Notes under the pieces: generated by a model
The model's input: the letters and a program-made list of their open reading frames with translations, nothing else
The model's database searches: none
What the model was told of the DNA's origin: nothing
Shown here: positions 8,093 through 33,074 of the stretch, piece after piece
How positions within the stretch are numbered: position 1 is the stretch's first letter
Layout: each line of letters begins with the position of its first letter
Translations under genes and position numbers: made by a program
Assembly: GCA_903887375.1 (NCBI GenBank)
Contig: CAISPN010000103.1
Span: 1 to 38,333 of the forward strand
Length of the DNA: 38,333 nt
DNA from: an uncultured cyanobacterium
Lineage (GTDB): Bacteria; Cyanobacteriota; Cyanobacteriia; Cyanobacteriales; Microcystaceae
Direction of reading: 5' to 3'

Positions 8093-9451
8093 ATGAAAGT
8101 ATGCGTCATTGGGACAGGCTATGTAGGATTGGTAACTGGTGTATGTTTAGCCCATATTGGTCATCATGTTATATGTATAGATAACAATGAAGAAAAAGTT
8201 AAGCTCATGAAGCTTGGCCAATCACCAATATTTGAACCAGGACTTTCTGAATTGATGCAATCTAGCACTACTTCAGGCAACCTAGAGTTTAGTACTGATA
8301 TTGGCTATGGGGTTGAGACTGCAGATATTCTCTTTATTGCTGTTGGAACTCCCTCTTTACCTAATGGAGAAAGTGATACTAGATATGTTGAGGCAGTAGC
8401 TAAGGGAATTGGCTCTCATCTGATTAGCGGCTATAAAGTAATTGTCAATAAATCTACTGTGCCTATAGGTTCGGGTGATTGGGTGCGCCTATTAGTTCTA
8501 GATGGTCTAGCCGAGCGTAAAAAATCTTCCTCAGAAAACTTGGATGTTGATTTCGATATTGTTAGCAATCCGGAATTTTTGCGCGAGGGCTCAGCCATAT
8601 ATGATACATTTAACCCAGATCGTATTGTTTTAGGTAGTGATAGCGCTAAGGCGATCGAAATGATGCAAGAGCTCTATACCCCAATCATTGAGCGCAAATA
8701 CAGCGAAAACCCTTCATTGGGCGCTGTTCCTGTTGTGGTGACAAATTTAAACTCAGCCGAGATGATCAAGTATGCAGCTAATGCCTTTTTGGCTACTAAA
8801 ATTAGCTTTATCAACGAGGTTGCCAATATTTGCGATAGGGTTGGGGCTGATGTGACTCAAGTGGCTCAAGGCATTGGCCTTGATTCTCGCATTGGTGGCA
8901 AGTTCCTGCAAGCTGGTATTGGCTGGGGAGGATCTTGCTTTGCTAAAGATGTCTCAGCCTTGATTCATACAGCTAATGACTATGGCTATGAAACTGAACT
9001 CCTTAAATCTACTGTTTCGATCAACCAACGTCAACGCTTGATCGTCATTGAGAAACTGCAATATGAGCTCAAGATTCTCAAAGGTAAAATTATTGGAATT
9101 CTAGGTTTGACTTTTAAACCCGATACTGATGATATGAGAGATGCGCCGGCTCTTAATATTATTGAGCAGCTCAATAGGCTCGGTGCCAAGTTGAAGGCTT
9201 ATGATCCGATTGTTTCCCAAAGTGGTTTGAGCCATGCTATTTCCGGGGTGACTATTGAAACTGATGCCCAAAGGTTGGCTGATGGCTGTGATGCTATAGT
9301 TTTAGTAACTGATTGGCAAGAGTTCCTCAGGCTTGATTATGCAGAGATGGCCAAATCAATGAATCAGCCTTTGATTATTGATGGGCGCAATTTTCTAGAT
9401 AGGCAAAAGCTTGAATCTGCTGGTTTTCGTTATGTAGGGGTGGGACACTAA
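8093..9451 (+). CDS. ugd: UDP-glucose 6-dehydrogenase
   Basis: A 452-residue enzyme oxidising UDP-glucose to UDP-glucuronate with two NAD. The N-terminal Rossmann motif GTGYVGLVTG, the central helix with NSAEMIKYAANAFLATKISF, the catalytic Cys282 in GGSCFAKD, and the C-terminal LGLTFKPDTDDMRDAPA are all present. Length matches the family. AGGAGG at 8073-8078 is a strong ribosome site, though its 14-base distance to the ATG is long. It forms a pathway pair with the upstream UDP-xylose synthase. Confidence 0.96.
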   Translation: MKVCVIGTGYVGLVTGVCLAHIGHHVICIDNNEEKVKLMKLGQSPIFEPGLSELMQSSTTSGNLEFSTDIGYGVETADILFIAVGTPSLPNGESDTRYVEAVAKGIGSHLISGYKVIVNKSTVPIGSGDWVRLLVLDGLAERKKSSSENLDVDFDIVSNPEFLREGSAIYDTFNPDRIVLGSDSAKAIEMMQELYTPIIERKYSENPSLGAVPVVVTNLNSAEMIKYAANAFLATKISFINEVANICDRVGADVTQVAQGIGLDSRIGGKFLQAGIGWGGSCFAKDVSALIHTANDYGYETELLKSTVSINQRQRLIVIEKLQYELKILKGKIIGILGLTFKPDTDDMRDAPALNIIEQLNRLGAKLKAYDPIVSQSGLSHAISGVTIETDAQRLADGCDAIVLVTDWQEFLRLDYAEMAKSMNQPLIIDGRNFLDRQKLESAGFRYVGVGH

Positions 9452-11343: not shown

Positions 11344-13335
11344 ATGAACGAATTTGCCACTTCTTCTCAAGATGAAATAATTCATAGAATTTCCACATAT
11401 ACAGGAGATAATCCCAATTCTATCAAAGTTGAAAAGATTAGAGCTCTTTTAGTTAAATTAAAAGATGATTTGCGTCCCAAGACAAGCTCCCTGATGCTTT
11501 TAGGACAAAAACAAGGTTTGGTGGAAGAATCTAAAAGTGAAGAATTGATAAGCGATCTTGAAAAAGTTGCTCTTACTTTAGATTCGTTAGTTTTTCGCAT
11601 TGCTGTTATTGGAGAATTTAGTAAGGGCAAGTCAACCCTTTTAAATGCAATTATTGGCGAAGAAATACAGCCATCAAGGATGATTCCCTGTAGTGCCAAT
11701 ATAAATGTGCTTAAATATGGGGAGCGTCAAAAAGTTACGGTTAAAAACAAAGATGGATCCTTAGAAGAGATTCCGCTAGAAGAGTATAAAGATAAAGCTG
11801 TAATGCCTATAGAGGCGGCAATTAGTAATCATACTGATACTCTGGTTAATTCTAATATTGAAGAAATTATTTATGAGCATCCTGGGCTAGAGCTTTTCAA
11901 AAATGGTATAGAGCTGATTGATTCTCCGGGTCTTAATCAACATCCAGATTTAGAAAAAATCACCCAAAAAATTATCAAAGGAGTTGATGCTATTGTCTTT
12001 GTTACCAGTTGTCTGCAGCCTCTTACTCAAAATGAAAGACAACTTTTACAATCTCTTAAAACTCAACTAAATCAACTCTCAGGTAAAGGAGAAGATCAGC
12101 CAGCACAAAATATATTCATCATTGTCAATTTTATCGATTTAATTAGAACAAATCAGGATCGCCAGCAGATTTCTTTACTCTTTCAAGAGCTCACTAAGGG
12201 CAAAAATCCTACTGTAATAGATGAAAGTAGAATACATTTTATATCTGCCCAAAAAGCCTTAGATGCCATTGTTAACAACAACCAAGACGATGAGTATCTG
12301 CAAGGATTTCATAGTTTTATTGAGCAGATCAATGGCTTTTTAAATCAGAGAGGCTATTTGATTATTCAGCAGCCTTGCAATAAATTTGGACAGATTGTTA
12401 AGGAATATCTTAAAGAGCTGGATAAGTCCGAAGCAGGAATAGAAAAAGAACTGCGAAAAATGGAAGATGAGATTAACAGAGTAGCTGATCAGATTGGCCA
12501 TGCTGAAAATTGCCAAAAGGAAATACTGCTTGAGGCAGAAAGGCTACTTAATCTTAGCAACAGCGAAATAAGCGAAAACTGGCAACAATGGAGCCGTGAA
12601 GATTCCCTAAAGACCATGGTCGATAGGGAGAGTATTGGTTGGTCTTCCAACTTTAATCCTGTTTTCCAGCAAAGAGAGATAATTCAAGATTATGTTGAAC
12701 AGTTCAACAAAGATCTTCAAAGTATGTTGGAAAAGTGGGGTCAAGAGCAACTCAGTGAGGTTCTTCAGCCTAGATCGCAAGATTTTGAGGATTTCATAAA
12801 TAGACAATTAGAAGCAATTCGGTTGAGGGTATATGGGGAAGGTCCTCGCAATAGGGAGATTTTTAACTATCAGAAATATCAGATGGTTGCCAAGCTTGAG
12901 GATAATTTTTTTGGCATTATCGGTATCAGAGGTGGCGTGATTATTGGCAGTGTAATCGCTCTAGTTGCAGGAGTTTTAAGCCAGCCCCATCTGGTCAATG
13001 CGGTAGCCGCAGGGGCTATCTCTACAATTCTTGGATCACTAGGTCTAGGCACACTAGATGTGGATCAACTCAAGCCTCAAATTAAAGATAAAGTCATCAC
13101 CCAATGCCTGGAAAGATTTGAGCGCTCTAAGTTTGAGAAAGATATGCAAAAAGCTATCCAAAGCGCATTTACTGATAGAGCCAAGAACATCAATAAAGAG
13201 ATAGATAAGTTGATTCTTCAGTGGAAGGCTGATTTGCAAAAAAAGAGAAAACATATGAAACAACAAAGGGCGGACATAAGTCTGATCAGATTAAAGGACA
13301 ACGTAGTGAGCTTGAACAAGTACTTCATGAAATAG
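11344..13335 (+). CDS. Bacterial dynamin-like GTPase, C-terminus probably frameshifted
   Basis: A 663-residue membrane-remodelling GTPase of the dynamin superfamily. The P-loop GEFSKGKS is at 90-97, the switch DSPGL at 193-197, and a variant G4 is seen at IVNFIDL. A glycine-rich hydrophobic hairpin (about 523-570) looks like the membrane paddle, flanked by long helices (about 355-400 and 575-640). Cyanobacterial relatives are linked to thylakoid maintenance. Oddity: after residue 634 the reading frame ends in an unconvincing basic tail (to 663), while the -1 frame from 13245 to 13367 gives 40 residues including GQRSELEQVLHEIDVLLSEV, a regular amphipathic helix typical of these proteins. The switch coincides with a slippery A AAA AAG. 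A -1 shift would yield 674 residues. Confidence 0.88.
   Translation: MNEFATSSQDEIIHRISTYTGDNPNSIKVEKIRALLVKLKDDLRPKTSSLMLLGQKQGLVEESKSEELISDLEKVALTLDSLVFRIAVIGEFSKGKSTLLNAIIGEEIQPSRMIPCSANINVLKYGERQKVTVKNKDGSLEEIPLEEYKDKAVMPIEAAISNHTDTLVNSNIEEIIYEHPGLELFKNGIELIDSPGLNQHPDLEKITQKIIKGVDAIVFVTSCLQPLTQNERQLLQSLKTQLNQLSGKGEDQPAQNIFIIVNFIDLIRTNQDRQQISLLFQELTKGKNPTVIDESRIHFISAQKALDAIVNNNQDDEYLQGFHSFIEQINGFLNQRGYLIIQQPCNKFGQIVKEYLKELDKSEAGIEKELRKMEDEINRVADQIGHAENCQKEILLEAERLLNLSNSEISENWQQWSREDSLKTMVDRESIGWSSNFNPVFQQREIIQDYVEQFNKDLQSMLEKWGQEQLSEVLQPRSQDFEDFINRQLEAIRLRVYGEGPRNREIFNYQKYQMVAKLEDNFFGIIGIRGGVIIGSVIALVAGVLSQPHLVNAVAAGAISTILGSLGLGTLDVDQLKPQIKDKVITQCLERFERSKFEKDMQKAIQSAFTDRAKNINKEIDKLILQWKADLQKKRKHMKQQRADISLIRLKDNVVSLNKYFMK
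13239..13245 (+). other. Slippery heptamer A AAA AAG at the apparent frame switch
   Basis: Within the dynamin-like gene the zero-frame codons are CAA AAA AAG, so the seven bases 13239-13245 form the same A AAA AAG signal as in dnaX frameshifting. Slipping back one base makes GAG (13245-13247) the next codon and opens 40 sense codons to a TGA at 13365-13367. GGAAGG (13223-13228) lies ten bases upstream, a spacing known to stimulate -1 slippage. No strong downstream stem-loop is visible. The same sequence could instead be a one-A deletion in a homopolymer (real or a sequencing error). Confidence 0.5.
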
Positions 13336-13367
13336 ATGTCCTTTTGAGTGAAGTTAGCTCTCATTGA

Positions 13368-30348: not shown

Positions 30349-31863
30349 CTATTTATTACTATTCTTGGTTCTCAAAAAAGAAGCAGTACTTTCGCCCATC
30401 ATCTGAGAGTTGAGTTTGGTCAAGATTTTAGGTTTGATTTTTTCTAGCTCTCTTTTGAGAATTTTTTTGCTAGCTTGAGGATCTCCTGCTTTGGTGGTTT
30501 GGGCATTGTTAGCCCAGTTCTTCAGGCTCATACTTTGGCTAGAGGAAATAGGAGAAGCCATAATCTGTCTGCATTTACCAGGATGCTCTAGGGCAAAAAA
30601 TAAAATCCAATAGTTGCCATTATCAGACATGGTGCGGGCGAATTTCTGCCCTGTGGGTGTTTTGAGATCTAGGTAGCAGTTTAGCCAGCGCGGGCCATAT
30701 TCAGGATGATTCAAAACAGTTATCCAGAGTAACATTGGATGAGGATTACTCAAAAAGATGAACTGATTGTATCTCATACTCGACATACGAATTACTATAT
30801 CTTCCTCTTCGAGCATCGTCCAAAGTGCTAAAATATCGCCATTTGGGGTATGCAACAGCCCAGGAAAAACAATTTTCTCTATCGGTTTATTGCCAGGCCA
30901 TAAGGTATTTAACCCAATTTCGTAAGGGGAAATATCTTGAGTAATATTGTGCAAATTTCCCTTGGTAGAAAGAGTTGTTCTCGGGCTGGATTGATTTTCA
31001 AGAGTTTCTAAAACTTGAATGAGCTCACTAATCTGCTGGGGACGCTCATCCGGTGATTTAGCTAGACATTTTAGAATCAGTGAATTGAGCTGAGGGGGAA
31101 TTTTGAAACTCGGGGCAATAGGATGTGGCTTGCTGTGGTGATGAACTTCATACCAAGCCCCAAATGAAGAGCCTTCTGGGCGCAGGGGCATATTCCCAGT
31201 GAGCATTTCATACATCACTACACCAAGGCTATAGATATCAGAGCGGTTATCTAGCTCTTTGCCTTCCATTTGCTCTGGTGAGCAGTAGGCTAAAGTGCCC
31301 ATGAAAGACTGGGTCTGAGATTCGTTTAAGTACATCAGTTTGGCTATGCCGAAATCTAGAATCTTTACCAGATCTCCCATGCCAGAATCTTGGACTACTA
31401 GAATATTGCTAGGTTTGATGTCTCTATGTACTATAGAAGAGCTTTCCCCTTGAAAGATAATTCCCCTATGGGCGCAATCTAGTCCGTAGCAGATCTGTTT
31501 AGCCAGAGAAATAAAGCGTTTTAATTCAATAGGATGTATTTTAATAATTTCATTGAGGCTGGCTCCAGAGAGAAATTCCATCACATAGAAAGGTACTTCT
31601 TTTTCATCAATGCCATAATCTCTGACTTTGACGATATGGATACTTTTTTCACCTAAAAGAGCCGAGATGGTTGCTTCTCTTTCAAAGCGCTCTTTCATTT
31701 TTTCGCTTAAAAGAGTTTGAGAGAGAAATTTAACAGCAACTGTTACTCCTCCAAGGAGCTTATCTTCTGCCTTGAAGACTTGACCCATGGCCCCTGTTCC
31801 TATCAGCTCTAACAGTTGATAGCGATCCGCAAGTAAGCGACGATAGTGAGAATCTGCAATCAT
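30349..31863 (-). CDS. Eukaryote-type Ser/Thr protein kinase with unknown C-terminal domain
   Basis: A 504-residue kinase from the ATG at 31863. It has the glycine loop GTGAMGQVFKA (22-32), Lys45, the catalytic HRDIKPSN with Asp148, DFG at 170-172, and the activation segment GTLAYCSPEQME. The kinase domain ends near residue 280. About 200 further residues (with LPGLLHTPNGDILALWTM, WITVLNHPEYGPRWLNCYLD, YWILFFALEHPGKC) form a second domain I do not recognise. No membrane helix, PASTA or WD repeats are visible, so the kinase looks cytosolic. The frame is also open to an ATG at 32019, but that start would run 97 bases into anmK and add a Ser/Asn-rich stretch unlike a kinase, so I rejected it. 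Confidence 0.85.
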   Translation of the reverse strand: MIADSHYRRLLADRYQLLELIGTGAMGQVFKAEDKLLGGVTVAVKFLSQTLLSEKMKERFEREATISALLGEKSIHIVKVRDYGIDEKEVPFYVMEFLSGASLNEIIKIHPIELKRFISLAKQICYGLDCAHRGIIFQGESSSIVHRDIKPSNILVVQDSGMGDLVKILDFGIAKLMYLNESQTQSFMGTLAYCSPEQMEGKELDNRSDIYSLGVVMYEMLTGNMPLRPEGSSFGAWYEVHHHSKPHPIAPSFKIPPQLNSLILKCLAKSPDERPQQISELIQVLETLENQSSPRTTLSTKGNLHNITQDISPYEIGLNTLWPGNKPIEKIVFPGLLHTPNGDILALWTMLEEEDIVIRMSSMRYNQFIFLSNPHPMLLWITVLNHPEYGPRWLNCYLDLKTPTGQKFARTMSDNGNYWILFFALEHPGKCRQIMASPISSSQSMSLKNWANNAQTTKAGDPQASKKILKRELEKIKPKILTKLNSQMMGESTASFLRTKNSNK

Positions 31864-31922
31864 AAGCTGAGTGATTTGCTGATTATTTCTGTATTTTAAA
31901 CTCGCCTTATCAAAAAACGCTG

Positions 31923-33074
31923 CTATTGGGTTATTGGCAGGTGAATTTGCCCTAAGAGCATTGGTATTTGGGCTCCGGTGACTTGCGGTAGATTGCCCGG
32001 CTCCTCGATCATACGCCAATAAGCCAATACCGCAAAAGCAATTGCCTCTTTATAATCTGCGCTCAGACCCAGTTCATCAGTGGTCATCACCTGGCTAGCT
32101 TGTCCCAATTTGTCCTGTAGTCTGCTTTTTAAATAGTGGTTGTGACTTCCTCCACCACAGAGTAGAACCTGTTGGGGAATTTCTTGCAAAAACCTTTGAT
32201 AGCTTAGAGCTATAGATGAGACTGTTAATTCGGTCAAACTGGCTAGCCAATCGGCGCTAGAAAGTTGATATTTTTGGGCTTGTAGTTGGCATTGTTTTAA
32301 ATAATCCGGGCCAAAGAGCTCTCTGCCAGTTGATTTAGGCGGCGCTTGTTGAAAAAACTCGTTTTCTAGCCATTTATCTACCAAATCATGGCAAGGAGTA
32401 CCGCTAGAGGCCCAGTTTCCATTTTGATCATATTTTTGTAGTCCATTGGTTAACTCCATGATTGCCAAATCCAACAGAACATTGCCAGGACCGGTATCCC
32501 AGCCTATGACTTCTTGCTGCCAGTTGGGTTTATTGCGCGCTGGAATATAGGTTAAATTGCCAATTCCTCCGATATTTTGCACGCAGCGGGAATACTGCAT
32601 ATCGCTTAAAAGAGCTGCATCTACTTTGCATACCAAAGGAGCTCCCTGTCCACCTGCTGCGATATCGGCTTGTCTAAACTGGGTGATCGTTGTTCTTTGG
32701 CTCAGCTTGGCAATCAGCTCACCTCGGCCTAGTTGCCAACTGTAACCTAATTGTCCTTCTTGAGCAGGCCGATGATAGACTGTCTGTCCATGAGATCCAA
32801 TCAATTGAGCATCCTGGCAGCCTTGCTGTTCAATTTCCAGCGCTGCAAGAGCAAACTGCCGGGCAATTGCCTCATCAAGCTCAACTAACTCTGGCAAAGA
32901 TAACTTCTCTCCGCCGCAAAGTGAAAGAATGCGCTCTCGCAGTTGCCCAGGATAGGGATAGGTATTACCTGCAAGAAGATGGATCTTTAAGTTATCCGTA
33001 GTTCCCTCAATCTCCACCAAGGCCGCATCAATTCCATCAACGGAAGTTCCACTCATCAGGCCAATTACCAACAT
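31923..33074 (-). CDS. anmK: Anhydro-N-acetylmuramic acid kinase
   Basis: A 383-residue sugar kinase that opens the anhydro ring of anhMurNAc and phosphorylates it for recycling of cell-wall fragments. It shows the ATP-phosphate motif [15 protein letters not shown], then [28 protein letters not shown], the catalytic region [12 protein letters not shown] and [11 protein letters not shown], and the C-terminal LLCGGGSHN. Length is normal. It lies four bases downstream of ycf65 and 59 bases upstream of the kinase gene, forming an operon. Confidence 0.95.

Follow-up and report, generated by a model that had tools for sequence, protein, structure and literature searches.

The 3' end of one gene in the window raises the question whether it encodes one protein or two. 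The window is the whole stretch of DNA analysed here, 38,333 nucleotides in length, and corresponds to contig C103 of genome G000 (2.93 Mb, 124 contigs), which is taken to be cyanobacterial. Close to the end of a dynamin-like GTPase gene, an A run and the following G13245 contain the heptamer A AAA AAG (13239-13245), whose zero-frame phase CAA AAA AAG fits a -1 slip, and behind it two different frames lead into an open tail (Table 1). Zero frame and -1 tail, joined at the heptamer, give a product of 674 aa. An earlier note had offered three readings of this arrangement: programmed slippage that yields two forms, transcriptional slippage that restores the frame, or the loss of one A. Its coordinates, the heptamer phase, the tail lengths (29 and 40 codons) and the product lengths (663 and 674 aa) all proved right on re-reading. 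On balance, we think that an A8 run close to the gene's 3' end has lost one A as an ordinary indel.

Table 1. Features of the dynamin-like GTPase gene and its 3' end, in window positions.
Feature	Position	Strand	Basis
Dynamin-like GTPase ORF, present form, 663 aa	11344..13335	+	ORF list; Pfam Dynamin_N match
GGAAGG, candidate upstream stimulator, weak	13223..13228	+	ten bases 5' of heptamer; GGAAAG in relative
A7 run, C-A7-G (A8 in relative)	13238..13244	+	sequence; alignment with L002
-1 frame tail, 40 codons and TGA (13365-13367)	13245..13367	+	homologous to C-terminus of relative and distant homologues
Zero-frame tail, 29 codons and TAG (13333-13335)	13246..13335	+	ORF list

The gene and its product

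The product of the gene is a bacterial dynamin-like protein. Residues 86-239 match Dynamin_N (Pfam PF00350) with an E-value of 8.3e-29 and a score of 101 bits (cut-off 27), so that a dynamin-type GTPase domain is present. The protein falls outside the DynA dynamin GTPase family NF052648 (NCBIfam), for which it scores 49.4 bits against a curated cut-off of 1600. By sequence, its nearest solved relative is the BDLP of Nostoc punctiforme (PDB 2j68, 2j69, 2w6d), which is matched by the protein of the related genome G002 at E 1e-30 over residues 41-399. This match is confined to the GTPase part and adjoining sequence, and the C-terminus has no significant match to the Nostoc protein (0.6 bits). AlphaFold models reached a mean pLDDT of 33 and 37, which is under usable confidence for judging the helical body, with membrane-interacting segment and GED, that bacterial dynamin-like proteins have; a hydrophobic stretch at residues ~530-570 was seen by eye only.

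The zero-frame tail had been called basic in the earlier note, which agrees with its composition of 9 K/R/H and 2 D/E per 29 residues; it contains the peptide ADISLIR, and the -1 tail contains SELEQVLHEIDVLLSEVSSH. A promoter and terminator scan returned seven promoter-like sites (shuffles 7.5) and no terminators (shuffles 1.4).

Elsewhere in the window, a protein-kinase-like ORF that opens at TTG (30349-32019) overlaps a minus-strand ORF (31923-33074, AnmK-like by eye) by 97 bases. Since its first 51 residues are without an in-frame counterpart in G002, its true start probably lies further in.

Comparison with homologues

Homologues were searched in 58 genomes including G000, of which 34 gave some match. 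A close ortholog was found only in G002, a genome of the same genus (83% amino acid identity), and the next best match in this set reached 38%. Neither the genus search (three genomes, G000 included) nor the family search (50 genomes, four of which matched at E <=1e-40: G000, G002, G009 and G030) returned an ortholog closer than that of G002. The G002 contig was also the sole return of a scan of genome contigs, which may omit records close to that of the window, and the 24 records of a plasmid search were all distant dynamins with <60% identity.

In this relative, the gene (L002) is a single frame of 674 codons. The C-A7-G of the window corresponds to C-A8-G in this gene, and the nearby alignment is without any other gap, which together support the loss of one A. 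The -1 tail of the window matches the C-terminus of the relative (tblastn E 9e-12), with 27 of 40 residues identical. The two sequences differ here at 31 bases, of which 9 are at codon position 1, 4 at position 2 and 18 at position 3 (binomial P 0.004 for 18/31). The tail is nevertheless less conserved than the body of the protein: 13 of its 41 codons carry a residue change, compared to a maximum of 12 in 30 body windows of 41 codons. As judged from two genomes, this extra divergence could mean that constraint was relaxed once the base had been deleted, or that the C-terminus is variable by nature.

The earlier note had suggested BLASTP of both tails, with a homologue that matches the zero-frame tail as an argument against any frame switch. 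We looked for such a match among eight homologues and found none. The result favours the -1 tail: the -1 form aligns to residue 669 or beyond in five of the eight, the relative included (L002, L003, L004, L039, L009), and the zero-frame form reaches residue 652 at most, while the alignments to L005, L040 and L008 end ahead of the site with either form. For L002, the score rises from 1124 bits with the zero-frame form to 1181 bits with the -1 form. The gains in the four distant homologues (369 to 371, 309 to 314, 278 to 285 and 225 to 231 bits) are small, 2 to 7 bits, and this counts against our preferred reading. Because five of the eight homologues align through the -1 tail, the sequence comparison identifies it as the C-terminus of the family and the zero-frame tail as new. 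Consequently, the change would be a loss in the window rather than a gain in G002.

Deletion or assembly error

Does the A7 run exist in the organism, or has the assembly dropped a base from an A8 run that encodes a normal protein of 674 aa? We regard a real indel as most likely and such a consensus error as less likely, improbable though far from negligible. The length of an A run is a classic site of sequencing error, the A7 allele comes from one assembly (one genome per species), and the -1 tail looks coding. In its retained excess of third-position change, a recent deletion or an error fits as well as an old deletion. Published expectations point in both directions. In those parts of a survey of 1106 genomes that bear on the question, most singletons validated by BLASTP are expected to stem from sequencing errors, but frameshifts are commoner at gene 3' ends and such singletons lean to real indels (PMC3711429). 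The present case resembles these singleton 3'-end bacterial frameshifts in that it occurs in one genome, lies near the gene end and has its frame confirmed by homology, and within those parts of the survey no difference to them was found (PMC3711429).

To test for genome-wide homopolymer damage, we compared parts of both genomes, namely 61 pieces of G000 (895,833 bases) and 66 of G002 (705,817 bases, some overlapping, so that a few genes may count twice). Ortholog pairs were defined by >=60% identity and 100 bits, which leaves out ORFs without a counterpart of this quality among the pieces retrieved. Seven of 109 A/T runs >=7 in the compared G000 genes were flagged, and six of these were dropped by eye, five with a gap-free run and gaps in the flanks and one unaligned. 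The dynamin run is thus the only clean frame-shifting length change, with none among the other 108, which supports a real loss of one A. For the same reason, the assembly does not appear to be generally homopolymer-damaged, and genome-wide damage of this kind, of which the ortholog pairs show none, was rejected as an explanation, although an error confined to this one site is conceivable.

Frame breaks were counted by two-frame tblastn. This approach replaced a detector based on DNA alignment, whose 26 and 28 segments, not each of them checked, were judged to be mostly gap-placement noise. Searching with G002 ORFs against G000 (152 pairs, 49,199 aa) yielded two frame breaks, the dynamin gene and an N-terminal one in L070; the reverse search (151 pairs, 48,997 aa) yielded one candidate, in L146.

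In contig C10 of G000 (L070:15702-15794), the first 31 residues of the G002 ORF L060 4343-5140 find their match in another frame, with 74% identity. From sequence comparison, this may be a second frame break in G000 outside a long homopolymer, or a start-codon effect. In the L146 candidate (325-477, compared with the L074 ORF 8333-8710), a short ORF shows a weak N-terminal match to G002 in another frame (45% identity). Weaker N-terminal flags by score concern the L088 ORF 2636-3034, the kinase-like window ORF mentioned above, and the L074 ORFs 1373-1831 and 8333-8710. We take the flagged cases in L088, the window and L074 for start-codon choice.

Slippage at the heptamer

If the deletion is real, -1 ribosomal slippage on A_AAA_AAG could still be of use: most ribosomes would make the form of 663 aa and a fraction the ancestral one of 674 aa. 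We consider this rather unlikely. The heptamer lies in phase, and the only tRNA-Lys seen in G000 has the anticodon UUU, with none carrying CUU among at least 40 tRNA matches (150 of 178 candidates scored); since no tRNA-Ile is among these matches either, the list is incomplete. There is also a precedent in tobacco chloroplasts, where a one-A deletion in the oligoA run of atpB goes along with a peptide that indicates -1 correction (PMC8254509). Both cases have in common that a one-A deletion can be corrected by a -1 shift. However, as far as the relevant sections describe it, the atpB run is longer (A9 after the deletion, to judge from the text), is followed by a predicted stem-loop and is backed by peptide evidence (PMC8254509), whereas the present run is A7 and is without such a structure. 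When AAG codons were introduced into the atpB run, a +1A insertion was no longer corrected (PMC8254509).

The reported efficiencies speak against an effective correction. In E. coli, heptamers of this type are given as slipping at ~0.3% without stimulators, a value that even the most favourable 3' context raises to no more than ~3.7% (PMC4066793), and the atpB one-A deletion retained ~5% activity there, which its authors, in the passage concerned, did not regard as effective (PMC8254509). In the four stretches folded, we did not find a stable stem-loop a few bases downstream of the window's heptamer. Low-level corrective slippage is possible, and by analogy with E. coli it would not be expected to exceed a few per cent.

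The remaining two explanations are both very improbable. The first is a dnaX-type programmed -1 frameshift, selected for two forms. In dnaX, A_AAA_AAG is combined with an upstream Shine-Dalgarno sequence and a downstream stem-loop (in part PMC8254509). Heptamer and phase are the same here, so that the X_XXY_YYZ pattern is present, and an upstream purine stretch exists as well: the GGAAGG reported in the earlier note was found again at the right distance. It is a weak candidate for a Shine-Dalgarno-like element, and is GGAAAG in the relative. GGAAGG also differs from the usual Shine-Dalgarno core.

Folding gave little in favour of a downstream element. A cut of 51 bases behind the heptamer reached z -2.03, with a stem of five pairs that begins ~25 bases downstream; given its distance from the heptamer and its absence from the other cuts, we rejected this stem as a stimulator. 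The three other stretches (75 bases downstream, z 0.06; 145 bases downstream, z -0.36; a stretch including the site, z 0.78) fold like their shuffles. A further objection comes from the comparison of A-run length and phase, which the earlier note had also proposed. None of the eight homologues has an in-phase A_AAA_AAG at the site, so the frame switch is not conserved. The A8 run of G002 gives A_AAA_AAA in phase within one open frame, and the seven distant homologues use other codons there; one of them, L040, has a run of A6 within the part examined. The relative already makes the long form from a single frame, whereas here the frame switch is due to a missing base. Among the readings offered earlier, programmed slippage is thus not borne out, with neither a conserved heptamer nor a hairpin at the usual distance, and the loss of one A is the one that stands.

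Counts of the motif lead to a similar view. Across 475 ORFs >=150 aa (615 kb of G000), in-phase A_AAA_AAG was seen 24 times, compared to 32.4 expected from codon shuffles, and in-phase A_AAA_AAA 99 times, compared to 90.2. AAAAAAG occurs 27 times in the window, compared to 21.9 +/- 4.6. The heptamer by itself is no more than chance expectation, and the -1 tail is more than chance.

Transcriptional slippage would restore the frame by inserting an extra A into some of the mRNAs. In insect endosymbionts, it corrects 12-50% of the transcripts where poly(A) runs are long, but the bacterial cases in the part of that source concerned are described for runs of 9 (PMC5009743), in chloroplasts A8 was considered not to suffice (PMC8254509) and the activity falls steeply with shorter runs (PMC5574713), so that the A7 run makes it hardly credible here.

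Implications

We thus return to the loss of one A as our preferred reading. Replication slippage at the homopolymer would have shortened A8 to A7 in this lineage. The DNA would then encode a protein of 663 aa, in which the GTPase domain is intact, as is most of the body, and the last 40 residues are swapped for 29 unrelated ones. The slippery heptamer would be a by-product of the deletion and not an evolved recoding signal. This calls for caution, as CAA-AAA-AAA-G minus one A yields an in-phase A_AAA_AAG and an open -1 frame unaided. Because the loss of one base creates the heptamer by itself, recoding is only weakly indicated when nothing but the motif is present.

It is conceivable, if doubtful, that the deletion became fixed and is tolerated since slippage on the very heptamer it created supplies enough ancestral protein, in a bacterial parallel to atpB. 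If corrective slippage does occur, the gene would give a naturally occurring example from bacteria to compare with the cases known in insect endosymbionts and in chloroplasts. As to the protein itself, the GED follows the membrane-interaction domain according to a review of cyanobacterial dynamins, which, in the part concerned, assigns the GED of NosDLP a role in higher-order assembly (PMC5827413). Because of this role in NosDLP, self-assembly is the function that we would expect to suffer from the changed C-terminus, if the form of 663 aa is made.
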